Shown here: in pieces, positions 6,180-19,933 of the stretch
Layout of the letters: each line of letters opens with the position of its first letter
How positions within the stretch are numbered: position 1 is the first letter of the stretch
Assembly: GCF_021919345.1 (NCBI RefSeq)
Contig: NZ_CP089293.1
Location: 3,720,001 to 3,784,000 of the forward strand
Source: Paenarthrobacter nicotinovorans
GTDB lineage: Bacteria > Actinomycetota > Actinomycetes > Actinomycetales > Micrococcaceae
Direction: 5' to 3'
DNA: 64,000 nucleotides
Program-made: the position numbers and the translations under genes
The notes under the pieces: model-generated
Told to the model about the DNA's origin: nothing
Database searches by the model: none
The model's input: only the letters and a program-made list of their open reading frames with translations

Positions 6180-7442
6180 CTATTGTCCTTGCACGGCCCG
6201 GAGACGGGAGTCCAGCAGCCCTGCCGCCACTGCCGGAGCGAGGCCGGGAGCCAGCGGAAGTCGCGGAACTACAAGGCAGTGCCACAGGTGATAAATGTCA
6301 GCCTTGCCCGACCAGACGGTGGACGCGACGTTGCCCTGCTCGTCCAGTTCCTGTTTCCAGGAACCGTGCTCGTAATCGATGAACCAGTCCCGTGCGTGGT
6401 CCCAGATGCGCTCGTACCACTCGGCATATGATTCGTCTCCGGTGACCATGTACAGCGCGGCCGCGCCGCCGATTGCTTCGACCGGCACCCAGCGAATGCG
6501 GGACGTGACAATGGGCTTGCCGTCCCAGTCAACGGAGTACACAAACCCGGGGTGGCCATCCGGCTCCCACGCGTCGCGGATCGCAGCGGCGAAAAGTCCT
6601 TTCGCGTCTTCCATGAGCCACCCAGGAACGTCCATGCCGCGAGCGTCCAGGCCGGCGCGGAGATGCAAGAGAAGCCTGGCCCACTCCACCCAGTGGCCAG
6701 GCGTTCCACCATAGGCGCGGAACTGGCTGGCACGGTCGTCGGTGTTGTACTCCGGAATCGGGTTCCATTCAGGGTCGAAGTGCTCGAACACCCGGTAATT
6801 GTTGTTGCGTGCAAATTTGTGGATGAGCACCTCAGCGATATGGAGTGCCCGCTCAATCCAGCGGCTTTCGCCGGTTACATCGGCGACGATGAGGTATGCC
6901 TCAACAGAATGCATGCTGGCGTTTCCACCCCGGTATGCCTCAGTTTCCGTGAATTCCCGGTTCCATGAGTCGAAGCACATGTTGGCTTCGTGGTCCCAGA
7001 ACTTCGAGTCCGCTATGTGCAATGCCTCGTCCAGCAACTCCCGGGCGCCGGGCCGCTTGGCCGCGGCGGCACTCGCTGCGGCCAAGAGCACGAACGAATG
7101 CTGATAGCCGGACTTTGTGTCATTCACTGGCCCGTTTTCGTCCACTTCGGCGAACCATCCACCGAATTCATCATCACGGAAGACCCCATTGAGCGCGGCA
7201 ATGCCATGGTCCACCATGGACGCGGCACCCGGGCGCCCCATCAATGCCGCAACCGAAAAGCTATGGATCATACGGGCAGTGATCCAGAGATGGGTCGGCT
7301 TGTCGGTCATGACCTTCCCGTAGTTGTCGAGCCAGCCAAAGCCCGTCGGCACTTTCGAGCCGGAGGCGAAATTGATAAGCCGGTCTGTTTCTGCTTCGAG
7401 CCAACGTGCGTGAGCGGCGCTGTTCAACCACGTCATGTGCAT
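6180..7442 (-). CDS. AGE-family sugar isomerase, probable sulfoquinovose isomerase (YihS/SqvD-like)
   Basis: A 420-residue (alpha/alpha)6-barrel protein of the N-acylglucosamine 2-epimerase/YihS family. Visible features are the WLDNYGK region near residue 40, [14 protein letters not shown] near residue 240 with one catalytic His, and the C-terminal [11 protein letters not shown]is box. The family interconverts aldoses and ketoses; with a YihT-type aldolase, PfkB kinase, sulfolactaldehyde-type dehydrogenase and TauE exporter nearby, the inferred reaction is sulfoquinovose to sulfofructose. It is the last gene of the minus-strand arm. Upstream lie a match to the cluster's GTGTTG-type operator and a second, TGTTTGAA-type site. 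A mannose or N-acylglucosamine isomerase is the alternative. Confidence 0.78.
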
Positions 7443-7498
7443 CTCCTCAATAAATTTGCGGCCACCAGAGGTAGGGCCTGTTCTTATGCTAAGCCAAG

Positions 7499-7516
7499 GT
7501 GATGGAATTCCACCAG
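7499..7516. promoter_or_regulatory. Imperfect GTGTTG-N6-CAACAC operator upstream of the isomerase
   Basis: GTGATGGAATTCCACCAG matches 14 of 18 positions of the operator upstream of the DeoR gene (8490-8507), including the shared AATTCCA core. It lies 57 bp upstream of the isomerase start, in the promoter region. Confidence 0.45.
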
Positions 7517-7521
7517 GTTAA

Positions 7522-7538
7522 GTTCGTTTTCAAACAAG
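7522..7538. promoter_or_regulatory. TGTTTGAA-type operator candidate upstream of the isomerase
   Basis: Read on the minus strand the site is CTTGTTTGAAAACGAAC, close to CTTGTTTGAACGAAC at 22167-22181 and CTTGTTTGAACA at 19958-19969. It may let the DeoR/LacI hybrid regulator also act on the isomerase. This is weak evidence from one site. Confidence 0.3.
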
Positions 7539-7659
7539 AGGTTGTTGGGGATCGGCCGTTTCAAAAGTCGGCGGGGATGTTGAGGCCACACGCGCCCAGA
7601 AAGTGCCGTGGCTAGAGGACTAGGACGCCCCGGGAAAATCCGTACCTGGTAAGCGGGTG

Positions 7660-8442
7660 TCAGTCAGCGACGATCAGACGGACATTTGCAGCCGACAAGG
7701 CGGCAGCAACCTCACGGGGTGGGGGCGCATCGGTGACGAGAATATCTACGGCCTCAAATGCAGCCAGTCGAGCGAGCGCATACCGAAGCATTTTCTGGTG
7801 GGTCGCAACCACCACAACCTGCTCAGCGGAGGCCATCAGGGCCAGCTTCGTTGCACGTTCCACATCCCGTTCAATGTAGAAACCCTCATCATGGATCCCG
7901 CTTACCCCGATGAAAGCCGTCTTCGCACGAAGCCCCTGAACGGCGTTGACAGTCATGGGTCCGTTGAAAGCCTGGCTGTCCAACAACAGTTCGCCACCGA
8001 GACATATGGTCCGGGCCGACGTCAGCTGCAGGCATCGTTGTATGGCGGGAGCGGAATGGGTGATGATCGTCCCCATGAAAGCGGCTGGGAGCTCCTGGGC
8101 AATCTGGTAGGTAGTGGTTCCGGCGTCCAGGATGATCGCATCGCGCTCGGAGACCAGGTCCACACAGGCTTTCGCGACCCTCTGTTTCGCATCAGCGTCT
8201 TCCCGGACGCGGGCCGCGAAATCGGCGTTCTGGCCGTGGCCTTCGATGGCACTGACGCCGCCATGAACCACCTTGACCAGTCCGAGTTTGGACAATGCAC
8301 GCGTATCGCGGCGGACGGTCATGTCCGACACGTCAAATGTGCCGGCGAGGTCCGCTGTGGAAAGAAACCCCCGCCTGCCAAGCTCGTCCAGAATGGTCTG
8401 CTGCCGCGGTGTCAGCGTTGCCTCTTCTCGTGCGATGCTCAT
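7660..8442 (-). CDS. DeoR family transcriptional regulator of the sulfoquinovose cluster
   Basis: A 260-residue DeoR-type regulator. The N-terminal winged helix is clear (LTPRQQTILDELGRRGFLS, then DVSDMTVRRDTRALSKLG), followed by the sugar-phosphate sensing domain with DAGTTTYQIAQEL and a C-terminal VTDAPPP. E. coli sulfoglycolysis is controlled by a DeoR-family protein (CsqR/YihW), so the same role is inferred here with a sulfo-sugar or its phosphate as inducer. RBS GGAGAGG precedes the ATG. Its own promoter region holds a perfect GTGTTG-N6-CAACAC palindrome, which suggests autoregulation. Confidence 0.85.
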   Translation of the reverse strand: MSIAREEATLTPRQQTILDELGRRGFLSTADLAGTFDVSDMTVRRDTRALSKLGLVKVVHGGVSAIEGHGQNADFAARVREDADAKQRVAKACVDLVSERDAIILDAGTTTYQIAQELPAAFMGTIITHSAPAIQRCLQLTSARTICLGGELLLDSQAFNGPMTVNAVQGLRAKTAFIGVSGIHDEGFYIERDVERATKLALMASAEQVVVVATHQKMLRYALARLAAFEAVDILVTDAPPPREVAAALSAANVRLIVAD

Positions 8443-8489
8443 GGCTTCCCCTCTCCTGACACCCCCAGCCCCTTCATCGGCGTGGGAAA

Positions 8490-8507
8490 GTGTTGTAATT
8501 CCAACAC
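8490..8507. promoter_or_regulatory. GTGTTG-N6-CAACAC operator, deoR promoter
   Basis: GTGTTGTAATTCCAACAC is a perfect 6-bp inverted repeat with a 6-bp spacer, 48 bp upstream of the DeoR gene. The same arms recur at 17264-17281, and half matches occur at 7499 and 9728. It is probably the binding site of the DeoR protein itself. Confidence 0.6.
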
Positions 8508-8515
8508 AATCTTAC

Positions 8516-9673
<1,158 letters not shown>

Positions 9674-9727
9674 TCAGCGTTGAGTGAAGGGGAATGACGT
9701 TGCATCCCGAACATCACTATACCGAAT

Positions 9728-9754
9728 GTGTTGTTTTTCACACATAGCGTGTGT
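9728..9754. promoter_or_regulatory. Operator region between the divergent glycosidase and kinase genes
   Basis: GTGTTGTTTTTC at 9728-9739 repeats exactly the left arm and spacer of the operator at 17264. It runs into two overlapping inverted repeats, TGTGT-N8-ACACA (9727-9744) and ACACA-N5-TGTGT (9740-9754). The spot lies between the starts at 9658 and 9795, so one site could control both arms of the cluster. Confidence 0.5.
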
Positions 9755-9794
9755 ATATTTTTTCACTACCAACCCAACTACAACGAGGTGGAAC

Positions 9795-10694
9795 GTGCCC
9801 CAACCGTCATCCGGAACACTGCTCTTCGTCGGGTGTGCCACTTTGGACTCCATCGCCCTCGTGCAGGAATACCCTGCCGCCGACAGCCGGACCATAGCCG
9901 ACGACTTCGCTACAGCAGGTGGCGGACCCGCAGCCACAGCCGCTGTAGCCGCAGCCCGCGCAGGTGCCAAGGTTGCGTTTGCCGGCGTTCTCGGCGCGGA
10001 CGAAGCGGGCGACCGGATCATCGTAGGACTCCAAACTGAAGGCGTGGACACTTCAGCTGTCATCCGTGACCCTCATGTCTACACAGGCGCGAGCGTGATT
10101 GTTGTCAGCAAGGCTACCGAAAGCCGGGCGATCGTCACCCGCCCTGTACCGCCGATCCGCTTTCCTGCCGGCAGCCGCTTTCATGAACTCCTGCATGTTG
10201 CGGAGTGGGTCCACGTGGATCACTTGGGCTGGAATGCCGTAGCTGGTCTGCCTGGCTTACGGATCAGCGTGGACGCCGGAAACCCGATTCCAAGCTTCAG
10301 CCCCAAGGGCGTTGAGCTGTACGTGCCCACCATCGAACGCCTGCAGGCAATATATGGAGCCAACCTCAAACCTGAAGCCCTCGTCCAAAAAGCCATCGAT
10401 GACGGTGCTACTACCGTGGTGGCCACCGCAGGGTCGGAGGGAGCATGGGGCCTTGAACGGGGCGGTATTCCCTTCCACGTCCCCGCAACCCCTGCTGACA
10501 TCGTCTCTACGCTCGGCGCTGGCGACGTCTACCACGGCGCCATCCTCGCGGCTGTGGCAGCAGGACTACCGATTGCAGAGGCCGCGTCGTTCGCTGGCCG
10601 CATTGCTTCGGCTTCCTGTGCAGGCCTGGATGGGCGTTCCATGATCCCCCGCGAGACCATCACCTCTGTCCTCACCGCTAATCCCACCCCCTAG
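9795..10694 (+). CDS. PfkB family carbohydrate kinase, probable sulfofructose kinase (YihV/SqiK-like)
   Basis: A 299-residue ribokinase-fold kinase. The N-terminal glycine-rich sugar-binding motif is ATAGGGPAATAAVAAARAG, and the C-terminal PfkB signature is STLGAGDVYHGA with catalytic base Asp244. I chose the GTG at 9795, which has GAGGTGG 3-4 bases upstream, over an in-frame ATG at 9684 that would add a poor N-terminus through the operator region. With the YihT-type aldolase 16 bp downstream, the inferred reaction is ATP-dependent phosphorylation of sulfofructose to sulfofructose 1-phosphate. The substrate is inferred from context. Confidence 0.8.
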   Translation: MPQPSSGTLLFVGCATLDSIALVQEYPAADSRTIADDFATAGGGPAATAAVAAARAGAKVAFAGVLGADEAGDRIIVGLQTEGVDTSAVIRDPHVYTGASVIVVSKATESRAIVTRPVPPIRFPAGSRFHELLHVAEWVHVDHLGWNAVAGLPGLRISVDAGNPIPSFSPKGVELYVPTIERLQAIYGANLKPEALVQKAIDDGATTVVATAGSEGAWGLERGGIPFHVPATPADIVSTLGAGDVYHGAILAAVAAGLPIAEAASFAGRIASASCAGLDGRSMIPRETITSVLTANPTP

Positions 10695-10710
10695 CTGAAA
10701 GAAGCAGCCC

Positions 10711-11595
10711 ATGAGCAACACAGACCTTTCCACCCTCCAGCGCCCGTCCGGTGCCTTCGCCATGCTCGCCGTTGACCAGCGCGAAGCCATGAGAAATATG
10801 TTCGCTGAGCACACAGACCAAGCGGTAACTGACGAGGACCTCCGCGACTTCAAGCTCGCAGCTGCCCGAATCCTCACTCCTTACGCTTCCGGCGTCCTCA
10901 TTGATCGCCAGTTCGCTCTTGACGCGGCCATCGAAGCCAAGGTGGTTGCCCCCGGCTGCGGGCTCATCGCTTCGGCCGACCACTTTGAGTCTGCCCACGG
11001 AGAGCTTGTGGGCGAAGTGACAATAGACAAATTGGTCGATCCCAAGAAGTACGCCGCCTTGGGCGTCACAGCCCTCAAGCTGCTGGTTCTCTACCGCCCG
11101 GACGAAGGCGCCGAAGAACGGGTGGCCATGGTCCGCGAATTCGTGGAAAGCTGCAAATCCGCCGGACTCATCAGCATCATCGAACCCGTTTCCCGCAAAC
11201 CGCTGGCAGGAGGCGACTTCGACTGGAATGCCGGTATTCTGGCCGCCGCCAAGGAACTGGGCGATCTCGGCGCCGATCTCTATAAAGCCGAGGTCCCCTT
11301 CAAGGGCCAGGCCTCCGAATCAGAGGTGCGGTCTGCTTGCGCCGAACTTACCAAGGCCATCAACGGTCCATGGGTAGTACTTTCTTCGGGCGTACCGGAA
11401 GAAATCTTCCCTGACGCCGTCCGGTGGGCTTGCTTGGAAGGTGCCAGCGGGTTCCTGTCCGGACGCGCAGTCTGGGCGTCCTGCATCGGTTCACCCGACG
11501 TCGTCGAATCTTTGTCAACTGACGCAGTCAGTCGTCTGCAGCGGCTCTGCGCTGTGGTGGACGAAGTGGTCTCTGCACAGCGAACCACCGCCTGA
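10711..11595 (+). CDS. yihT: Sulfofructosephosphate aldolase (YihT-like, class I)
   Basis: A 294-residue class I aldolase of the LacD/YihT group that should split sulfofructose 1-phosphate into dihydroxyacetone phosphate and sulfolactaldehyde. Blocks I recall from E. coli YihT are closely matched: SGAFAMLAVDQREAMRNMF, ALKLLVLYRPDE, SIIEPVSRKP, AAKELGDLGADLYKAEVPF and SGFLSGRAVWAS. The Schiff-base lysine is Lys192 in LYKAEVPF. It follows the kinase by 16 bp with AAAGAAG before the ATG. This is the most diagnostic single gene of the cluster. Confidence 0.88.
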   Translation: MSNTDLSTLQRPSGAFAMLAVDQREAMRNMFAEHTDQAVTDEDLRDFKLAAARILTPYASGVLIDRQFALDAAIEAKVVAPGCGLIASADHFESAHGELVGEVTIDKLVDPKKYAALGVTALKLLVLYRPDEGAEERVAMVREFVESCKSAGLISIIEPVSRKPLAGGDFDWNAGILAAAKELGDLGADLYKAEVPFKGQASESEVRSACAELTKAINGPWVVLSSGVPEEIFPDAVRWACLEGASGFLSGRAVWASCIGSPDVVESLSTDAVSRLQRLCAVVDEVVSAQRTTA

Positions 11596-11670
11596 TCCTT
11601 CGGGGCATCACGGGTGCCCCGTCGCGGTCCCCCATAACTAGGCACAGCAACACTCAATGAGGAGAATATT

Positions 11671-12960
11671 GTGAGTCAGATTTCACGCAGGCAGGCCATG
11701 GCTGTTCTCGGAGCCCTGGGTTTTGGCGCAACCGCCGCAGCATGCGCAGGTCCGGGCGGTTCCACCGCCCCGGGTGGCGCCACGGGCCCGGCCGCTCCTG
11801 CAACAGGTGACATCACCGGCAAAGTGTCCTTTGCCCACTGGCGCGGCGAGGACAAAGCTGTCTTCGACGAACTCATCAAGCGATTCGTTGCAAAGAACTC
11901 CGGCGTAGAGGTGATCCAAGATATCTCCACGTCCAACGACTACAACGCCCAGGGCTTGCAAAAGGTCCGGGGGGCTGCCATCGGTGACGCATTTGCCACC
12001 TTCCGCGGCGCGCAGTTCAACAATTTCAGTGAAGCAGGGATCTACACGGAACTGAAAAACAGCAAAGCTGTGGGCAACTACCAGAAGGGTCTGCTGACAG
12101 CCGGACAATCGGGGGACAGCCAATTGGGTCTGCCCTATCAGGTGGTCTTCCCCATGCCCATGGCCAACACGGACCTCTTTGACAAGGCCGGCGCGGAACT
12201 GGCACCCAAGGACTGGGACGCTTTCCTGGGCATGTGCGAAAAACTTGCCGCGTCCGGCGTCGTTGCTCTCTCATGGCCCGGTGGTGATGTGGGAAACGGC
12301 GGTCAGCTGTTCAACTGCATGATCGCCAACAATGCACCCGTAGATGACATGTGTTCGCAGATAGAGCAGGGCAAGCTCAAATGCACGGACGACTGGTTCA
12401 TCAAGATGTTGAACCAGTACAAGGACCTGGCCCCCTACCTTCAACCCAACGCCACCGGCACCGCGGTGGAGCCTGCGCAGAACCTGTTTTCCCAGGGCAA
12501 AGCTGCCATGTTGGCCACTGGTTCCTACCACATTGCGGCCGTTCGCAATCTGGGTGCAAAGTTCCCCATCGAACTGGTCTTCCCCAACACGTCCACGGAT
12601 GGCAACGCCAAGTTTGAGGGCGTCTACAACGCCACGTTCATCTTGGGCGTGAATTCCGCGAGCAAGAACCAGGCGGCATCGGCAGCGTGGATTGATTTCC
12701 TTTCCGAACCCGAGAACGCCGGCTACTACGCCAATCAGACCGCGCAGCATGTGTCCGTCAAAGACGTTGAGTACACCAACGCCGACCTCAAGCGTTTGAG
12801 TCCATGGCTGGACAAGAAAACGGCCCTGGCCGCCCGGTTCCAGTTCCAGAACCTGGACGTCCGCAACGCCGTCGAAGCCAGCGCTACGGCGGTCATCTCC
12901 GGCACCAGTCCCGAGCAAGCAGCTGAAGCAGCCCAGAAGATTGTTGACGAACGGCTATGA
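11671..12960 (+). CDS. ABC transporter substrate-binding lipoprotein (family 1), probable sulfoquinovosyl glycerol or sulfoquinovose binding
   Basis: A 429-residue extracellular sugar-binding protein. It has an SRRQAM twin-arginine-like start, a hydrophobic segment and a lipobox-like AAAC near residue 26, so it is expected to be a lipoprotein. The rest is a family 1 solute-binding fold with FAHWRGEDKAVFDELIKRF near the start of the mature protein. The GTG start follows GAGGAG. It leads an importer with the two permeases that follow, directly after kinase and aldolase, so the ligand is probably sulfoquinovose or its glyceryl glycoside. Binding residues cannot be judged by eye. Confidence 0.85.
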   Translation: MSQISRRQAMAVLGALGFGATAAACAGPGGSTAPGGATGPAAPATGDITGKVSFAHWRGEDKAVFDELIKRFVAKNSGVEVIQDISTSNDYNAQGLQKVRGAAIGDAFATFRGAQFNNFSEAGIYTELKNSKAVGNYQKGLLTAGQSGDSQLGLPYQVVFPMPMANTDLFDKAGAELAPKDWDAFLGMCEKLAASGVVALSWPGGDVGNGGQLFNCMIANNAPVDDMCSQIEQGKLKCTDDWFIKMLNQYKDLAPYLQPNATGTAVEPAQNLFSQGKAAMLATGSYHIAAVRNLGAKFPIELVFPNTSTDGNAKFEGVYNATFILGVNSASKNQAASAAWIDFLSEPENAGYYANQTAQHVSVKDVEYTNADLKRLSPWLDKKTALAARFQFQNLDVRNAVEASATAVISGTSPEQAAEAAQKIVDERL

Positions 12961-13913
12961 GCACCCATACCGGAACGGCTGCCAAGCGAAAGGCGCCGGA
13001 CAGCACCACCGACGCTGCGTCGAAGAAGCGCCGGTCCCCTACCCGGGTGCACCCTGCGCTGTACCTGTTCCCGCTGCCAGCGGTAGCAATCATCGCCTTT
13101 TTCCTGGTGATGCCCACGCTGCAGGCATTCGAGTACGCCATCACGGACTGGAATGGATTCTCGGCAGCCTTCAACTACGTGGGTGTGGACAACTTCGTCC
13201 GGGCATTTACCAAGGATTCGCTGTTCACCAATGCGCTGACCAACAACCTGAAGTTTGTTTTGCTGGTGGTCATCGCACAAACGGTGTTCTCGTTGCTGCT
13301 TGCGCTGCTGCTGACAAAGAACTCACGGGGAAACGTAGTGCTTCGCGCCCTGTTCTTCTTCCCCACCATCCTGTCCTCCGTGTCCGTGGCCTTCATCTGG
13401 AAGTTCATCTACGACCCCAATTTCGGTCTCGCCAACTCCGCTCTGGGCGCGATCGGTCTGGAGGGCCTTCAAGGCTCATACCTCGGTAACAATTCCCAAG
13501 CGCTGTACTGGGTTGCAGTAACGCAAGTGTGGTTCCACGCAGGCCAGATGATGGTGGTCTACATCGCCGGCCTCCAATCCATTCCCCGTGAACTGTATGA
13601 AGCGGCCGAGATGGACGGCGCCAACAAATGGCAGCAGTTCAAGTCCATCACCTGGCCGTTCGTTGCCCCGGCCACGTCCATCGTGGTCGCCTACACCACG
13701 GTCCAGTCGTTCAAGGCCTTTGACTTGATCCTGGGGATCGCGGGCAACCCGCCCAAAGGTTCCCTGGACATCCTGTCCACCCGCATCTACAGCACTTTTG
13801 CCAACTCGGAGTTCGGATATGCCGCCGCTCAGTCAATCATCTTCATGGGGATGATCGCCTTGGTCACCTGGCTGCAACGCCGGTTGCTCCGTCTGACCCC
13901 GAAGGGGGAATGA
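12957..13913 (+). CDS. ABC sugar transporter permease, MalF-type
   Basis: A 318-residue integral membrane protein with a charged cytoplasmic N-terminus and about six transmembrane segments. The permease EAA motif is YEAAEMDGANKWQQFKSITWP near residue 215, the contact site for the ATPase. The ATG overlaps the stop of the binding-protein gene (ATGA), so the two are translationally coupled. Its partner is the permease at 13918. No ATPase gene accompanies them, so a shared MsiK-type ATPase elsewhere is inferred. Confidence 0.92.
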   Translation: MSTHTGTAAKRKAPDSTTDAASKKRRSPTRVHPALYLFPLPAVAIIAFFLVMPTLQAFEYAITDWNGFSAAFNYVGVDNFVRAFTKDSLFTNALTNNLKFVLLVVIAQTVFSLLLALLLTKNSRGNVVLRALFFFPTILSSVSVAFIWKFIYDPNFGLANSALGAIGLEGLQGSYLGNNSQALYWVAVTQVWFHAGQMMVVYIAGLQSIPRELYEAAEMDGANKWQQFKSITWPFVAPATSIVVAYTTVQSFKAFDLILGIAGNPPKGSLDILSTRIYSTFANSEFGYAAAQSIIFMGMIALVTWLQRRLLRLTPKGE

Positions 13914-13917
13914 CAGC

Positions 13918-14733
13918 ATGCTTGCATCCATTAGCCGCCGCGTAATCCTTGCCATCTACGCGGTCATCATCATCGTCCCCATCACCGTTGTCCTGTTCGG
14001 CAGCTTCAAGTCAACGCAGGAACTCTTCGAGGGTCCTTTCAGCCTTCCCCAATCCCTCGCGCCCGACAACTTCGCGGAAGTCATCGGCGGCCAGGACCTC
14101 GGCTCGTCCTTCCTGAACAGCGTCATTGTCACCGGGATCTCCGTTCCCATAACGCTCTTCATTGCCAGCCTGGCTGGTTATGCTGTGGCCCGGCTGAGGG
14201 GCTTCGCCTCGTGGGCCATCTTCGGATTCCTTGTCCTGGGAATGGCCATCCCGGCCCAGGCCAACATGGTGCCGCTGTACGTGCTGTTCGGCCGCATCGG
14301 CCTGTTGGACAACCTCACCGGACTCATTGTGGCCAACATCGTGTCCACCTTGCCCATTGCCGTATTCATCCTGGGTGGGTTCATGCGTACGCTGCCCAAA
14401 GAGCTCTATGAGGCTTGCTCCATTGACGGCACCGGACCGTGGCGGACCTACGTGTCCATTGCACTCCCGCTCTCGGCACCCTCGATAGCTGCTGCTGCCA
14501 TCTTCCTGTTCGTCATCCACTGGAATGAGCTGCTGTACCCCCTCCTGTTCATCCAGTCCCCCGGAAACCGAACCCTTCCATTGGCATTGCTGAGCTTCCA
14601 GGGCGAGTTCCAAACCAACTACCCGCTCTTGTTCGCCGGCGTCATCCTGGCATCGCTTCCCGTCGTGGTGGCCTATGTCTTCCTGCAGCGCTACTTCGTT
14701 GCGGGCATTACCGCCGGTGCCAGCAAGGGATAA
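13918..14733 (+). CDS. ABC sugar transporter permease, MalG-type
   Basis: A 271-residue membrane protein with six predicted segments and the EAA loop YEACSIDGTGPWRTYVSIALP near residue 162. It starts 4 bp after the MalF-type gene with AGGGGG just upstream, and completes the two-permease pore of the cluster's importer. Substrate specificity is set by the binding protein at 11671. Confidence 0.92.
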   Translation: MLASISRRVILAIYAVIIIVPITVVLFGSFKSTQELFEGPFSLPQSLAPDNFAEVIGGQDLGSSFLNSVIVTGISVPITLFIASLAGYAVARLRGFASWAIFGFLVLGMAIPAQANMVPLYVLFGRIGLLDNLTGLIVANIVSTLPIAVFILGGFMRTLPKELYEACSIDGTGPWRTYVSIALPLSAPSIAAAAIFLFVIHWNELLYPLLFIQSPGNRTLPLALLSFQGEFQTNYPLLFAGVILASLPVVVAYVFLQRYFVAGITAGASKG

Positions 14734-14791
14734 GGCTCCACTCCGGTCGCGGGACAGCGCACCTCAATCAGCCAACGAAAGGCAACACAAA

Positions 14792-16231
14792 GTGAACCTG
14801 AAATCAGCGCAACACCTGATTAACGGAACCTGGCACTCTGCCGGAACATTCAAGAACGTGACGGACCCCGGAAACGGGGGCACAGTGGGCGAGGTGGCCT
14901 GGGGAAACACTGAGGACGCGGGCAAAGCCGGTGACGCCGCTGCCGAGGCTTTCGGCGACTGGTCCCGCACAACGGCCCGCACCCGCGCCGACCTTCTCCG
15001 CAACGCTGCTGCGCTCTTATCCGAACGCCGCGACGAACTGGCGCATACCTTGGCGTTGGAAGCCGGCAAGCGACTCCCCGAGGCGCAAGGCGAAGTGGAC
15101 TTCTCAGTGGAATACTTCCGCTGGTTCGCCGAGGAAGTACGCCGCGCAACAAGCACTGTCAGCCCACCCGAGCTGCGGGGCCGTCGACACCTCAGCACCA
15201 GCAAGCCCATTGGAGTCGCGCTTAGCCTTACCCCATGGAATTTTCCGGTTTCAATCCAGGCCCGCAAACTCGCTGCCATGCTCGCCGCCGGCTGCACCGT
15301 GGTTGGCCGTGTTTCCGAGAAGGCACCGCTTGCCGCGACCGGCCTTTTCGAGATACTGCACGATGCCGGGTTCCCCGCCGGAGTGATCAATCTGGTGCAC
15401 GGTCCTTCCCGCGAAATCACCGGCGCCCTGCTCAAGCACCCCGCAGTCCGCGCCGTCAGTTTTACTGGTTCCACCGGTGTGGGCCGTCAGATCATGGCTT
15501 CTGCGTCAGAACGTGTGGTGAGGCCGTTGCTGGAACTTGGCGGCAATGCACCGTTCATCGTCTTCGAGGACGCAGACCTGGACGCCGCCGTTGAGGGGGC
15601 AGTGCTCGGAAGGCTCCGCAACACAGGACAGTCCTGCGTCGCCGCTAACCGGTTCCTGGTCCAAGACAGCATCGCGGACGAATTCGGCCGGAAGCTTGCC
15701 GCGAAATTTGATGCCATGACCATAGGACATGGAGTTCCCGACGGTGACACACCTGTCCCGGACCTTGGTCCCGTCATTGACGCCGAGCGCGTCGCCGCTG
15801 TGCAGGCCCTGGTGGACGATGCCCTGGGCCGCGGAGCCCGCCGCCTGACCGAACGTACCCACGTTCCGGGAGAGGGTTCCTTCATGGCGCCCACGCTCCT
15901 GACCGATGTTCCCGATGACGCACCCTTGGTGAGCGAGGAAGTCTTCGGCCCCGCGGCAGGGGTACTCACTTTCTCCTCGGAAGAGGAAGCAATCAGGAAG
16001 GCGAATGCCACCGAAATGGGACTTGCCGCCTACATCTGGAGCAGCAGCCCCAAGCGTGGCTGGGACATCCCGGAGCAGTTGGAAGCAGGCATTGTGGGAG
16101 TCAACGACCCCCTCCCATCCGTGGCCTTCGCCCCCATGGGCGGCGCCAAGCAGTCGGGACTGGGCCGGGAAGGATCAAGCCTTGGCCTCGAAGAGTTCGA
16201 GGAGGTCCAGTACGTGGCCTGGAAGCCCTAA
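14792..16231 (+). CDS. NAD(P)-dependent aldehyde dehydrogenase, probable sulfolactaldehyde dehydrogenase
   Basis: A 479-residue aldehyde dehydrogenase of the succinate-semialdehyde/GabD-like type. The active-site Cys282 lies in NTGQSCVAANRF and the general base Glu248 in LELGGNAP; SLTPWNFPVSIQ marks the cofactor domain. The GTG at 14792, with GAAAGG 9 bases upstream, is chosen over an in-frame ATG inside the preceding permease gene. After a YihT-type aldolase the expected substrate is sulfolactaldehyde, oxidised to sulfolactate. That matches pathways which excrete sulfolactate and differs from E. coli, which reduces it to dihydroxypropanesulfonate. Confidence 0.8.
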   Translation: MNLKSAQHLINGTWHSAGTFKNVTDPGNGGTVGEVAWGNTEDAGKAGDAAAEAFGDWSRTTARTRADLLRNAAALLSERRDELAHTLALEAGKRLPEAQGEVDFSVEYFRWFAEEVRRATSTVSPPELRGRRHLSTSKPIGVALSLTPWNFPVSIQARKLAAMLAAGCTVVGRVSEKAPLAATGLFEILHDAGFPAGVINLVHGPSREITGALLKHPAVRAVSFTGSTGVGRQIMASASERVVRPLLELGGNAPFIVFEDADLDAAVEGAVLGRLRNTGQSCVAANRFLVQDSIADEFGRKLAAKFDAMTIGHGVPDGDTPVPDLGPVIDAERVAAVQALVDDALGRGARRLTERTHVPGEGSFMAPTLLTDVPDDAPLVSEEVFGPAAGVLTFSSEEEAIRKANATEMGLAAYIWSSSPKRGWDIPEQLEAGIVGVNDPLPSVAFAPMGGAKQSGLGREGSSLGLEEFEEVQYVAWKP

Positions 16232-16975
16232 ATGCTGACTACGGGACTTGTTCTGGGCGCAGTGGTCGTGGGTGCCGGGATGCAACGCATTACCGGCATG
16301 GGATTCGCGCTGGTGGCAGCCCCGTTCCTGGTACTTCTCCTCGGCCCCGTCGAAGGGGTGGTGCTGGTCAACGTCTGCGGAGCCGTGACGGCCGGCGCCA
16401 TCATTTTCCGCGTCATGCGGGACATCGACTGGAAGAGGTACATGGCGCTGGCTGCCTCGGCGCTATTAGGGATTGTCCCCGCGGCATTCCTCATCCGGTA
16501 CCTTCCGCCGTCGGTCCTGGAGATTTCAATCGGCGTGACCCTTGCCGCAGGCCTGACAGTCCTGCTGGTCATGAAGTCAGCCGTCCTACCCCAGCGTCGT
16601 CGTTATCTCTTCGCCGCCGGCGGCCTCAGCGGCTTCATGAATACTGCCGCGGGAGTAGGAGGACCAGCCGTGAGCATTTACTCCATGGCTACCCGGTGGC
16701 AGCACAAGTCGTTCGCCGCCACGATGCAGCCCTATTTCTTTACCATCGGGGCGCTGTCCCTTGTTTCCAAAGCGGTGACCGCACCAGCTTCGTTGCCGGT
16801 CCTGCCGATGACAATGTGGCTGGCCGTCGCCGCTGCCTGTTTGATCGGGCTCGTCCTGGGTGACCTCGCTTCCAAGCGGGTATCCACCAGGGCCGCCCAG
16901 ATTCTCCTGATTATCCTGGCCTACCTGGGAGCAGCAGCAACCATCGTTCGCGGTGTGCTGGATGCCATTGGCTGA
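16232..16975 (+). CDS. TauE/SafE family anion exporter, probable sulfolactate exporter
   Basis: A 247-residue membrane protein with about eight hydrophobic segments in two repeats, opening GLVLGAVVVGAGMQRITGMG and carrying the second-repeat signature GGLSGFMNTAAGVGGPAVS. TauE/SafE proteins move sulfoacetate, sulfite and related organosulfonates. The ATG abuts the stop of the aldehyde dehydrogenase gene with no gap, so the two are probably coupled. In this setting it should export the C3 sulfonate sulfolactate left after sulfoglycolysis. Confidence 0.85.
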   Translation: MLTTGLVLGAVVVGAGMQRITGMGFALVAAPFLVLLLGPVEGVVLVNVCGAVTAGAIIFRVMRDIDWKRYMALAASALLGIVPAAFLIRYLPPSVLEISIGVTLAAGLTVLLVMKSAVLPQRRRYLFAAGGLSGFMNTAAGVGGPAVSIYSMATRWQHKSFAATMQPYFFTIGALSLVSKAVTAPASLPVLPMTMWLAVAAACLIGLVLGDLASKRVSTRAAQILLIILAYLGAAATIVRGVLDAIG

Positions 16976-17024
16976 CCCGCCCTCCCTCCAACCTAGAGAA
17001 CCCACCACCATCGAAAGGACTGCC

Positions 17025-17228
17025 ATGTCCCCCGTTTCAGCAAAGATCAATTCAGCAAAAGAACGTACCCTGCGGGTTTCTGCAACCAAGGGTGACCATG
17101 TTGATCTCACGATTGGTGCCTCCGATCCAGTGGCCGTTCGTCTTGAAATTGACAACAACTGCGGCTGTGCCGACGGCCATGCCCGAGGCGTCGGCTCGTA
17201 CACAGATACTGACTTCGGCCGACGCTGA
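17025..17228 (+). CDS. Small Cys-containing protein of unknown function (67 aa)
   Basis: The start at 17025 (MSPVSAKINSAK) follows GAAAGGA at a 7-base distance, a good ribosome site, which is my main reason for calling it. The protein has a beta-rich body (TLRVSATKGDHVDLTIG, DPVAVRLEID) and ends with NNCGCADGHARGVGSY, a Cys-x-Cys next to a His. That could bind a metal or be redox-active, but I recognise no family. It lies 49 bp after the exporter and upstream of the operator at 17264, so it is probably the last gene of the main sulfoquinovose transcript. Confidence 0.5.
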   Translation: MSPVSAKINSAKERTLRVSATKGDHVDLTIGASDPVAVRLEIDNNCGCADGHARGVGSYTDTDFGRR

Positions 17229-17263: not shown

Positions 17264-17281
17264 GTGTTGTTTTTCCAACAC
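17264..17281. promoter_or_regulatory. GTGTTG-N6-CAACAC operator upstream of the phosphohexomutase
   Basis: GTGTTGTTTTTCCAACAC has the same arms and spacing as the site before the DeoR gene (8490-8507). It lies 46 bp upstream of the mutase start, where a promoter would be, and brings that gene into the inferred DeoR regulon. Confidence 0.6.
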
Positions 17282-17326: not shown

Positions 17327-18721
17327 ATGGATCTTTCCTCATCTTTCAAGGCCTACGACGTCCGTGGCTTGGTGGGGGTTTCCCTCACCGATGAAGTCTC
17401 AGAAGCCATTGGGGCCGCATTCGTGGATGTTCTGGGCCTTGCGGGCAAGACCGTGTTCTGCGGCGGAGATATGCGACCGTCCTCCAAGGGGTTCGTCTCT
17501 GCGTTCTCACAGGGCGCCGCAACCCGGGGCGCCGATGTGTACGATCTCGGACTCATTGCCACCGACGAGCTCTATTTTGCGTGCGGCGCCATGAACGCGG
17601 CTGGTGCCATCTTCACAGCAAGCCATAACCCTGCCCAGTACAACGGAATCAAGATGGCCAAGGCCGGAGCCGTTCCCATCTCTTCCGACTCGGGACTTTT
17701 CGATATCAGGGACCTTGCCCAGCGATATCTGGACCACGGGTTTCCCAAGGCTGAATCAGCGGGGACCGTTGCACCGCTCGATGTCCTTGGTGACTACGCG
17801 CTCAAGCTGCGTTCGCTCGTGGACTTGACGGACGTTCGGCCGCTAAAGGTTGTAGTTGATGCCGGGAACGGCATGGCCGGCCTGACAGTTCCCGCGGTGT
17901 TGGGCAGCGAAATTCTGGAGGCCTTGCCCCTGACCATCGTCCCGTTGTATTTCGAGCTGGACGGTACTTTTCCAAACCACCCTGCCAACCCCTTGGAACC
18001 GGAGAACCTTCGGGACCTGCAAGCAGCCGTGCTTGCCCACGGCGCTGACCTGGGGTTGGCATTCGACGGCGACGCAGACCGCTGCTTTGTTGTGGACGAG
18101 ACCGGGCAACCAGTAACACCGTCGGCCATAACCTCCATGATCGCTGTGCGGGAGATTGCAAGGGTTCAAGCAACGGGCCAAAGCAACCCGGTAGTAATCC
18201 ACAATCTGATAACGTCCCGGTCGGTGCCCGAGTTCGTTCAGGCTGCCGGTGGCCGGCCAGTCCGAACCCGGGTAGGCCACTCGTTCATCAAGGCCCGAAT
18301 GGCTGAAGAGGACGCTGTTTTCGGTGGAGAACATTCGGCCCACTACTACTTCCGCGACTTCTACAACGCAGACACCGGCATGCTGGCAGCCATGCACGTA
18401 CTTGCTGCCCTGGGCGGGCAATCAGCGCCCCTCTCCACGCTGGCACGGCAGTACGAGCCGTACTCGGCCAGCGGCGAGATCAACTCAACCGTTCCGGATG
18501 TATCCCAAGCCATTGCGGACGTGTGCCAAACCTATGATCAATCGCAGGGCATCCGCATTGATGACCTGGACGGGCTGAGCGTGATCGACGAGTCAGGCGA
18601 ATGGTGGTTCAACCTCAGGGCCTCAAACACGGAGGAACTACTCCGGCTCAATGTCGAAGCCAGGAATGCGCAACTCATGGAACGCATGCGGGATGCCGTT
18701 CTGGACATGATCCGGAACTAG
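17327..18721 (+). CDS. Phosphomannomutase/phosphoglucomutase
   Basis: A 464-residue alpha-D-phosphohexomutase that interconverts hexose 6- and 1-phosphates. All four family sites are visible: the phosphoserine loop TASHNPAQYNGIK with Ser99, the metal loop FDGDADRCF near residue 245, the sugar-binding loop GGEHSAHYYF near residue 330, and a C-terminal phosphate loop (RASNTEELLRLNVE). AAGGAGA precedes the ATG. A cluster-type operator precedes the gene and the paired hairpin follows it, so it belongs to the cluster by layout. Growth on sulfoquinovose yields only C3 units, so it may serve gluconeogenic supply of hexose 1-phosphates; that role is inference. Confidence 0.88.
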   Translation: MDLSSSFKAYDVRGLVGVSLTDEVSEAIGAAFVDVLGLAGKTVFCGGDMRPSSKGFVSAFSQGAATRGADVYDLGLIATDELYFACGAMNAAGAIFTASHNPAQYNGIKMAKAGAVPISSDSGLFDIRDLAQRYLDHGFPKAESAGTVAPLDVLGDYALKLRSLVDLTDVRPLKVVVDAGNGMAGLTVPAVLGSEILEALPLTIVPLYFELDGTFPNHPANPLEPENLRDLQAAVLAHGADLGLAFDGDADRCFVVDETGQPVTPSAITSMIAVREIARVQATGQSNPVVIHNLITSRSVPEFVQAAGGRPVRTRVGHSFIKARMAEEDAVFGGEHSAHYYFRDFYNADTGMLAAMHVLAALGGQSAPLSTLARQYEPYSASGEINSTVPDVSQAIADVCQTYDQSQGIRIDDLDGLSVIDESGEWWFNLRASNTEELLRLNVEARNAQLMERMRDAVLDMIRN

Positions 18722-18853: not shown

Positions 18854-19933
18854 CTACTCCGCATCCTCCCCGAACGCCGTGGACTCCCGGATGATCAGCT
18901 TGGGGGCGAGGCTTACGCGGCGGAGGGCAGGCGAAACTGCAGCCCCGGGCTTTCCTGCCAAGCGTTCCATACACATGGTCACCGCGGCGTAGCCGACGTC
19001 CCGTTTGGGAGGTGCAATGGACGTCAGCGGCACCGGAGCGAGGTCGGCCACCTCGTCGTCATACGCCACGATGGCGAGGTCTTCGGGCACACTGACTCCG
19101 GATTCCTCAGCAAGGTTGATCAGCGTGATGGCTTCCTCGTCGGGAAGGACCAGCGCAGCGTGGGTTCCGGTGCGGCGGCAATCTTTCAGGAACTTCTTGA
19201 ACTCTTTTTGGTTGTTGCCCGCGCCCACCACTGAACGGTCATACTCCATGACGGGTGCATCCGTTTCCAGACCCAGCTTGGCCACCATCCGCTCATGGCT
19301 TTCACGGAGCCAGGGGGCCGTAGCGCTGGTGGCAACAGCCAGCCCGATCCTGCGGTGTCCCAGGGACGCGAGGTGCTCCATGGCCAGTTCAGCGCCATAG
19401 CCGTGATCCGACATCACTGACTCGAACACCCGGCTTGAGCGCTCCACCAGCACCACGGGGATCCGCACGCCGGACAGCAGGTCAAACGTCGGCGAACCAG
19501 GCTCGAGGGGGCCCGCAGTCGCCAGGAGGATCCCGTCCACGGAGTTGGCCACCATGCGCTGGAGCTGTCGAAGCTCGTCCTCCGCGGAGTAGTTGCTGAC
19601 GCCTGGGATGAGGCGTGCGTTCAGGGCCCTGGCCGCAGCTTCTGCGCCACGGATGACCTCAGGGAAGTAGTAGCCGGTGGTTGGGACTATGAGGCCGAGG
19701 GTAGCCAGCGGCTGGCGTGCGCGCCTGTGGACTGTGTCCCCCGGCCGCTCCACCACCATGCGGACCGCACCACCGTGGACCCGGCGCAGGAGGCCCTGAG
19801 CCGCGAGCTGGGTAAGGTCCCGGCGGATGGTCATGGTGGACTGGCCGCTTTTTTCGGCGAAGTCGTTCACGGTCAGGGTCCCGCGAAGCTCCAGTTCACG
19901 GAGTATCTTCTCGTGGCGTTCCCCGCTGAGCAT
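18854..19933 (-). CDS. Hybrid transcriptional regulator: DeoR-type HTH with LacI-type sugar-binding domain
   Basis: A 359-residue regulator. Residues 1-60 are a DeoR/GlpR winged helix (MLSGERHEKILRELELRG, then STMTIRRDLTQLAAQGLLRRVHGG). Residues 75-355 are a periplasmic-binding-like LacI effector domain (ATLGLIVPTTGYYFPEVIRG, then AMEHLASLGHRRIGLAV and VPEDLAIVAYDDEV). It should sense a free sugar rather than a sugar phosphate. GAGGA lies 7 bases before the ATG. TGTTTGAA-type sites occur in its own promoter, in the divergent promoter at 22.2 kb, and at the distant paralogue at 2.1 kb, so these are its likely targets. Confidence 0.82.
   Translation of the reverse strand: MLSGERHEKILRELELRGTLTVNDFAEKSGQSTMTIRRDLTQLAAQGLLRRVHGGAVRMVVERPGDTVHRRARQPLATLGLIVPTTGYYFPEVIRGAEAAARALNARLIPGVSNYSAEDELRQLQRMVANSVDGILLATAGPLEPGSPTFDLLSGVRIPVVLVERSSRVFESVMSDHGYGAELAMEHLASLGHRRIGLAVATSATAPWLRESHERMVAKLGLETDAPVMEYDRSVVGAGNNQKEFKKFLKDCRRTGTHAALVLPDEEAITLINLAEESGVSVPEDLAIVAYDDEVADLAPVPLTSIAPPKRDVGYAAVTMCMERLAGKPGAAVSPALRRVSLAPKLIIRESTAFGEDAE

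Follow-up and report, generated by a model that had tools for sequence, protein, structure and literature searches.

A predicted sulfoquinovose utilization locus of Paenarthrobacter nicotinovorans, its candidate operator and a linked phosphohexomutase paralogue

Upon analyzing a 64,000-nucleotide stretch of the Paenarthrobacter nicotinovorans genome (contig NZ_CP089293.1; this whole stretch is referred to as the window), we determined that positions 6180-16975 encode the full set of enzymes for the catabolism of sulfoquinovose (SQ). We consider it very probable that this locus serves the utilization of SQ glycosides, a degree of confidence that applies to the SQ pathway itself. Judged by its sequences, the pathway is of the sulfoglycolytic Embden-Meyerhof-Parnas (sulfo-EMP) type published for Arthrobacter, in which YihS, YihV and YihT homologues are combined with a sulfolactaldehyde dehydrogenase, and not of the sulfo-EMP2 type. 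Our evidence consists of homology, key residues of the sulfoquinovosidase SqgA and of the dehydrogenase, synteny, the conservation and rarity of a palindrome, and the linkage of a mutase gene. While the core cluster adds one more genome to those with a known plant-sulfolipid route, and is ordinary among soil relatives of Arthrobacter, the predicted operator and the mutase are the parts that merit a bench test.

The predicted sulfoquinovose cluster and its enzymes

The genes are arranged in two divergent arms (Table 1): an AGE-family isomerase, a DeoR-family regulator and a Gfo/Idh/MocA gene lie on the minus strand. On the plus strand, a PfkB kinase and a class I DeoC/LacD-type aldolase are followed by a solute-binding protein, two permeases, an aldehyde dehydrogenase and finally a TauE/SafE permease. 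A first-pass annotation of the same DNA had proposed these two arms, and every gene that it named was found in its place, although its list left out the Gfo/Idh/MocA gene at 8516-9658 (SqgA); its end point, 17228, is the stop codon of a 67-residue open reading frame (ORF) that its text omits. The route that it had outlined, in which SQ would be taken up and cleaved to dihydroxyacetone phosphate (DHAP) and sulfolactaldehyde, and the latter oxidized to sulfolactate for export, is well supported by homology and by collinearity with clusters of the type found in the Arthrobacter strains AK01 and AK04. The ORFs of the kinase and the dehydrogenase open at 9684 and 14675, respectively, but these longer versions enter the intergenic region and the second permease, respectively, so that, from the sequence, GTG codons at 9795 and 14792 are the likely true starts.

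The PDB matches of the isomerase, aldolase, kinase and SqgA far exceed what chance would produce. The isomerase closely matches the SQ isomerase structure 7ag4 (E 2.9e-177) and belongs to PF07221, as expected of the AGE-family SQ isomerase of sulfo-EMP pathways; an Arg and three His residues, which we take to belong to the active site of YihS, are conserved in it. The aldolase carries its Schiff-base lysine at residue 192, as already stated in the first-pass annotation, and is much closer to the sulfofructosephosphate aldolase 7ag7 (E 2.7e-82) than to the best-scoring tagatose aldolase in the PDB (7.9e-15). On this comparison, which had been named beforehand as one that could refute the assignment, a tagatose-bisphosphate aldolase was rejected.

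The kinase is the weakest assignment of the set, and it weighs against our interpretation. By sequence it is only distantly YihV-like: its best PDB match is the sulfofructose kinase 7ag6, and that match is weak (E 5.2e-29). Furthermore, at the positions of Lys27, Asn109 and Arg138, which we presume to be sulfonate contacts of YihV, the alignment has Arg, Thr and Gly. Because these contacts differ, the substrate of the kinase is assigned from its context and from the work on AK01.

The dehydrogenase is a PF00171 protein whose best NCBIfam match, a succinate semialdehyde dehydrogenase subfamily, falls below the cut-off of that model. It has residues equivalent to Arg171, Arg289, Glu261 and Cys295 of RlGabD, which have been proposed for sulfolactaldehyde dehydrogenase (PMC10599462); these were located manually in the translated sequence, according to their distances from the WNF motif and from that of the catalytic Cys. 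The absence of a second Cys agrees with what the same paper states for Arthrobacter (PMC10599462).

The protein encoded at 8516-9658 matches the structures 8qc2 (E 1.7e-233, over its full length) and 8qc3 (E 3.3e-220). The first of these structures comes from the GH188 sulfoquinovosidase work of Kaur et al. 2023 (PMC11465081, PMC10755693), whose second SqgA we infer to be 8qc3. Within the Gfo/Idh/MocA fold, all eight published SQ contacts are kept, comprising the sulfonate site (R166, L170, K172) as well as K107, Y136, E189, H193 and H321. Glu163 of the paper corresponds to Val163-Glu164 both in the window protein and in the aligned 8qc2 chain, and the published number may therefore be offset. 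Given the match to GH188 structures and the retention of all published contacts, we expect sulfoquinovosyl glycerol and similar SQ glycosides to be used by the cluster.

An importer for free SQ only, with the Gfo/Idh/MocA protein oxidizing SQ as suggested for an IolG homologue, was an option considered by Kaur et al. in 2022, prior to the characterization of SqgA (PMC8873060). For the window we find it hardly credible, since the nearest solved relatives of the protein are SqgA enzymes, all three SqgA orthologues tested, two of them from Arthrobacter and Cryobacterium, cleave SQ glycosides (PMC10755693), and no sulfogluconolactone pathway is present among the cluster proteins. Similarly, the distance of the kinase from YihV would suit a cluster directed at a different sulfosugar, for instance sulfofucose or sulforhamnose, and Paracoccus wurundjeri, which degrades sulfofucose, also has PfkB- and YihT-family homologues in a gene cluster (PMC12421959). 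This, too, is very improbable. Sulfofucose breakdown in P. wurundjeri uses an Entner-Doudoroff set (PMC12421959), and on its absence from the window cluster that route was rejected; both the isomerase and SqgA, with its full complement of contacts, match SQ-handling structures; and growth on SQ induces the AK01 locus, which is collinear with that of the window (PMC10755693), with sulfo-EMP enzymes and SqgA raised (PMC8873060, PMC10755693).

The first-pass annotation was right in taking the ABC importer and the oxidizing dehydrogenase as differences from Escherichia coli, but not in reading them as a fit to a "sulfo-EMP2 variant reported from Arthrobacter". Sulfo-EMP2, known mainly from Firmicutes, is defined by SqvD (PF02952), SqiK (PF00365) and SqiA (PF01116), which are non-orthologous to the yih enzymes (PMC9594981, PMC12890257), whereas the isomerase, kinase and aldolase of the window match PF07221, PF00294 and PF01791 and none of those three families; the label is thus ruled out. 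The clusters published for Arthrobacter belong to the yih type, except that a dehydrogenase takes the place of the reductase (PMC8873060).

A family scan detected no ABC ATPase among the cluster proteins. In other actinobacteria, a shared MsiK-type ATPase serves several importers, and a single protein of this genome exceeds the UgpC cut-off (G000:C1:868364-869434); a UgpC-family ATPase encoded elsewhere probably energizes this importer.

With substrates and flux transferred from the AK01 and AK04 papers, the proposed route would run as follows. The ABC importer would take in SQ or sulfoquinovosyl glycerol, a shared UgpC/MsiK-type ATPase supplying the energy, and SqgA would free SQ using catalytic NAD+. 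The YihS homologue would convert SQ to sulfofructose, the PfkB kinase would phosphorylate this to sulfofructose-1-phosphate, and the YihT homologue would split the product into DHAP and sulfolactaldehyde. The latter would be oxidized to sulfolactate by the aldehyde dehydrogenase and exported by TauE.

To define the spread of the cluster, a genome was considered cluster-bearing on the basis of the aldolase alone. In the genus sample of 150 genomes, 44, counting the genome of the window, encode an aldolase of at least 79% identity, and 52 encode a relative at E <= 0.001; relatives of any kind occur in 12 of 245 genomes of the family sample and 39 of 297 of the order sample. Most cluster genes stay together across 25 named loci. 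The gene order of the window is shared by Arthrobacter MYb23, EpRS71, 18067 and NtRootA1, the first two of which are among the genomes in the legend to Fig. 4 of the 2022 paper (PMC8873060), while in AK04 (L057), which has the set from isomerase to small protein, and in most other named loci the isomerase is placed after TauE. The AK01-matched genome (G146) keeps the order of the window from isomerase to mutase, at 87-99% identity (72% for the small protein). The loci L056, L063, L065 and L066 yielded no YihS-type isomerase at E <= 1e-20; in three of them (L056, L063, L066), the aldolase and the binding protein are separated by an ORF that, by eye, is of the fucose-isomerase kind. Ruania (L068) lacks sqgA and has an ORF judged by eye to be a GH31 glycosidase.

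Two further observations concern these loci. In L056, L063, L064 and L066, the second permease is separated from the dehydrogenase by an ORF of ~370-470 residues that resembles, by eye, an M24-type peptidase or creatinase, and L065 contains a shorter version. An aldolase 68.6% identical to that of the window is encoded on a 130 kb Arthrobacter plasmid (NZ_CP110115.1, 90944-91804), and for this reason the SQ pathway may move between strains.

A palindrome and its predicted regulator

The strong conservation of the sqgA-pfkB intergenic region (a footprint of 23 rows) led us to the palindrome TGTTG-N6-CAACA. Exact copies occur twice in the window, at 8491 and 17265, and these are the only exact sites in the whole 4.48 Mb genome; the pattern read backwards has nine sites in the genome. 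In 200 Markov shuffles of the window, the palindrome appeared on average 0.04 times and at most once. Of the 25 named loci, each of the 21 in which sqgA and deoR are both present has an exact site separating the two genes. In Ruania, two sites precede the isomerase gene; no site was found in the truncated loci L048 and L063. In the divergent region between sqgA and pfkB, 16 of 22 relatives have an exact palindrome and L066 has one with a single mismatch.

At least one site is present in all 45 of the cluster-bearing genomes searched, compared with 13 of 26 cluster-lacking genomes, which are a part of those without the aldolase. The TTCC half-spacer found in most cluster sites is absent from the sites listed for these 26 genomes.

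The simplest reading of these sequences, and one that we hold to be quite likely, is that the palindrome is an operator bound by the DeoR protein, which would repress the locus through it and be released by SQ or a derivative. Several points weigh against this interpretation. The link to DeoR draws on the position, conservation and rarity of the palindrome, and binding is deduced from position alone. The divergent promoter of the window itself has only a degenerate site with two mismatches, as, by eye from the alignment, do L044-L047 and L064. Two segments overlapping the palindrome regions, 8490-8507 and 9739-9753, resemble terminator hairpins as well, although such matches are little more frequent than chance between 7400 and 9850 (4 found, 2.1 expected). 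Finally, a sigma-70 scan of the same interval found no promoter, with 0.7 expected, and hence none beside the palindromes.

An operator at the isomerase promoter (7443-7659) was considered and rejected: the only candidate, at 7521, is a one-mismatch match to the looser pattern TGTT-N8-AACA, which occurs in the window at chance level (15 found, 11.5 expected). In a literature search combining SQ or sulfoglycolysis with DeoR and regulation, the relevant matches listed concern only E. coli, and the main text of the paper on the E. coli regulator CsqR contains neither "consensus" nor "palindrom"; a literature search on the small protein and the operator likewise listed nothing of use. If correct, the predicted operator would make the SQ regulon easy to recognize in these actinobacteria. 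Together with synteny, it points to two candidates, namely a phosphohexomutase paralogue whose occurrence follows the pathway and a small protein.

A phosphohexomutase paralogue and a small protein beside the cluster

The second exact palindrome starts at -62 and ends 47 bases before the ORF of an alpha-D-phosphohexomutase, which scores 668.6 bits against the PRK09542 equivalog (cut-off 618). Its motifs TASHNP, DGDADR and RASNTE, which we take to be the phosphoserine, metal and phosphate loops, respectively, are intact. The genome has another, housekeeping-like copy (G000:C1:758550-759935; 69% identity). Based on its sequence context, the mutase at 17327-18721 is probably induced by SQ as part of the DeoR regulon, and this extension of the SQ regulon is a prediction for which the literature matches listed gave no precedent. 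No link of SQ to phosphomannomutase or phosphoglucomutase appeared in the titles or abstract starts among the literature matches listed, and the main texts of PMC8873060 and PMC10755693, figures and supplements being outside this scope, contain none of the terms phosphomannomutase, phosphoglucomutase and mutase.

A cluster-linked mutase was found in 17 of 45 cluster-bearing relatives (12 at >=75% identity, 3 at 73-81%, 2 at ~68%), always within ~14 kb of the aldolase, whereas the 26 cluster-lacking genomes have one match each and no second copy. In G059, the linked mutase is the only match at E <= 1e-100. Counting that of the window, 14 of the 18 linked mutases have a palindrome with no more than one mismatch upstream; among the 27 unlinked mutases examined, none has a site with fewer than two. 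A 45-row tree places 16 of the linked copies in a supported group that is distinct from the 27 unlinked copies. These groups are told apart by 21 alignment columns, some of which adjoin the phosphate loop (RPSNTEPF to RASNTEEL) or the GGEHSAH loop. The remaining two linked copies, L064, which falls among the unlinked copies, and L123, which sits on a long branch and whose place is unsure, lie outside this group, so that the mutase may have been recruited more than once.

Other data speak against a place in the regulon and would suit a housekeeping-like bystander whose upstream palindrome is a coincidence. The catalytic motifs of the mutase are ordinary, 28 of the 45 cluster-bearing genomes lack a linked copy, among them the AK04-matched G130, and four of the 18 linked mutases (L064, L111, L123, L136) have no palindrome; in addition, the association of linkage with the cluster (Fisher p 1.2e-4) ignores relatedness and takes the cluster from the aldolase alone. 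We nevertheless consider a bystander unlikely. A housekeeping-like copy already exists in this genome, no second mutase at E <= 1e-100 lies away from the cluster in any of 71 relatives, the 16 linked mutases group together, and the palindrome stays with the mutase on either side of the cluster, whether it follows TauE, as in loci arranged like the window, or lies past deoR, as in L056 and L060.

As to the role of a mutase under DeoR control, our cautious guess is that it gives gluconeogenic support; since G130 has no linked copy, it would be dispensable for growth on SQ. More speculatively, and in our estimate improbably, the SQ-switched mutase could be a sulfonate-excluding isozyme, a self-protection gene that keeps sugar phosphates flowing while SQ poisons the housekeeping phosphohexomutase. 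SQ would, as a stable mimic of glucose-6-phosphate, enter the housekeeping enzyme and take the phosphoryl group from the phosphoserine at O1, giving SQ-1-phosphate, which could not return it; the enzyme would be poisoned just when growth on SQ needs gluconeogenesis. The mutase makes it testable whether intracellular SQ disturbs ordinary sugar-phosphate enzymes. Convergent to the mutase gene, 18854-19933 encodes a regulator with a DeoR-type helix-turn-helix and a LacI-type sugar-binding domain.

The 67-residue ORF between TauE and the second palindrome ends in CxC...GSYTDTDFGRR. Full relatives are present at 17 of the 25 named loci, behind TauE or behind an isomerase that follows TauE, fragments at two and none at six; that of AK01 is LN996_01405. 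In a set of 72 genomes, 46 of which bear the cluster, a cluster-linked copy is present in 32 of these 46 (in one, G063, as a fragment), and a copy of any kind occurs in at least 37 of these 46 compared with at least 4 of the 26 lacking the cluster, the counts being lower bounds because at most 88 candidates were scored per genome. Third codon positions differ most in six of six pairs, as expected for a coding frame, and amino-acid-changing codons outnumber silent ones in every pair, indicating that the protein evolves fast. It has no NCBIfam match, and Pfam matches, all below cut-off, were judged to be chance, so that membership in a known family was rejected. A large protein set contains 103 relatives at E <= 0.01, itself included, and those from named organisms all come from Arthrobacter and near kin. 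In several of 10 stretches inspected by eye, paralogues lie behind transporter-like and Zn-dehydrogenase-like genes, and the protein is therefore not specific to SQ; as these stretches show no single theme, a function could not be taken from their neighbors. A second family member in L047 (1243-1407) lies directly behind a transporter-like gene.

Table 1. Features of the predicted sulfoquinovose locus and its surroundings in the window
Feature	Position	Strand	Basis
Sulfoquinovose/sulfofructose isomerase (YihS homologue, AGE family)	6180..7442	-	7ag4 match; PF07221
DeoR-family regulator, CsqR-like role proposed	7660..8442	-	PF08220 + PF00455
Predicted operator TGTTG-N6-CAACA, between sqgA and deoR	8491..8506		exact palindrome
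SqgA, NAD+-dependent sulfoquinovosidase (GH188)	8516..9658	-	8qc2 match; SQ-contact residues
Divergent promoter/operator block sqgA/pfkB, conserved; degenerate palindrome 9729-9744	9715..9766		footprint, 23 rows
Sulfofructose kinase (PfkB family, YihV homologue)	9795..10694	+	best PDB match 7ag6; PF00294
Sulfofructose-1-phosphate aldolase (YihT homologue)	10711..11595	+	7ag7 match; PF01791; Schiff-base Lys192
ABC solute-binding protein	11671..12960	+	PF01547
ABC permease 1	12957..13913	+	PF00528
ABC permease 2	13918..14733	+	PF00528
Sulfolactaldehyde dehydrogenase (GabD/SlaB type)	14792..16231	+	PF00171; RlGabD-equivalent residues
TauE/SafE permease, presumed sulfolactate exporter	16232..16975	+	PF01925
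Small conserved 67-residue protein, CxC...GSYTDTDFGxR	17025..17228	+	relatives at named loci
Predicted operator TGTTG-N6-CAACA, upstream of mutase	17265..17280		exact palindrome
Phosphomannomutase/phosphoglucomutase paralogue, predicted regulon member	17327..18721	+	PRK09542 equivalog; linked clade; site at -62

Comparison with known systems

The sulfo-EMP2 pathways of Bacillus urumqiensis and Megamonas rupellensis share their intermediates with the route proposed here, and in them, too, sulfolactaldehyde may be oxidized to sulfolactate (PMC9594981, PMC12890257); the difference lies in the non-orthologous SqvD, SqiK and SqiA, whose families are matched by none of the corresponding window proteins. 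With the yih cluster of E. coli, the window shares the families of isomerase, kinase and aldolase as well as a DeoR-family regulator. However, the yih transporters are replaced by an ABC importer, the GH31 enzyme YihQ by one of GH188, and reduction to dihydroxypropanesulfonate (DHPS) by oxidation to sulfolactate, and no mutarotase is encoded among the window cluster proteins. At the residues checked, SqgA does not differ from the GH188 sulfoquinovosidases 8qc2 and 8qc3, which it matches over its full length and in all eight SQ contacts.

The closest likeness is to the modified sulfo-EMP clusters of AK01 and AK04, which comprise the same enzymes, importer, dehydrogenase and SqgA (PMC8873060, PMC10755693). 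Both strains grow on SQ and excrete sulfolactate (PMC8873060). AK04 differs from the window in having its isomerase behind TauE and no linked mutase. For AK01, the cluster description in the 2022 paper noted no permease (PMC8873060), but the AK01-matched genome does have TauE, behind the dehydrogenase (L178, 16248-16988), and its gene order is identical to that of the window.

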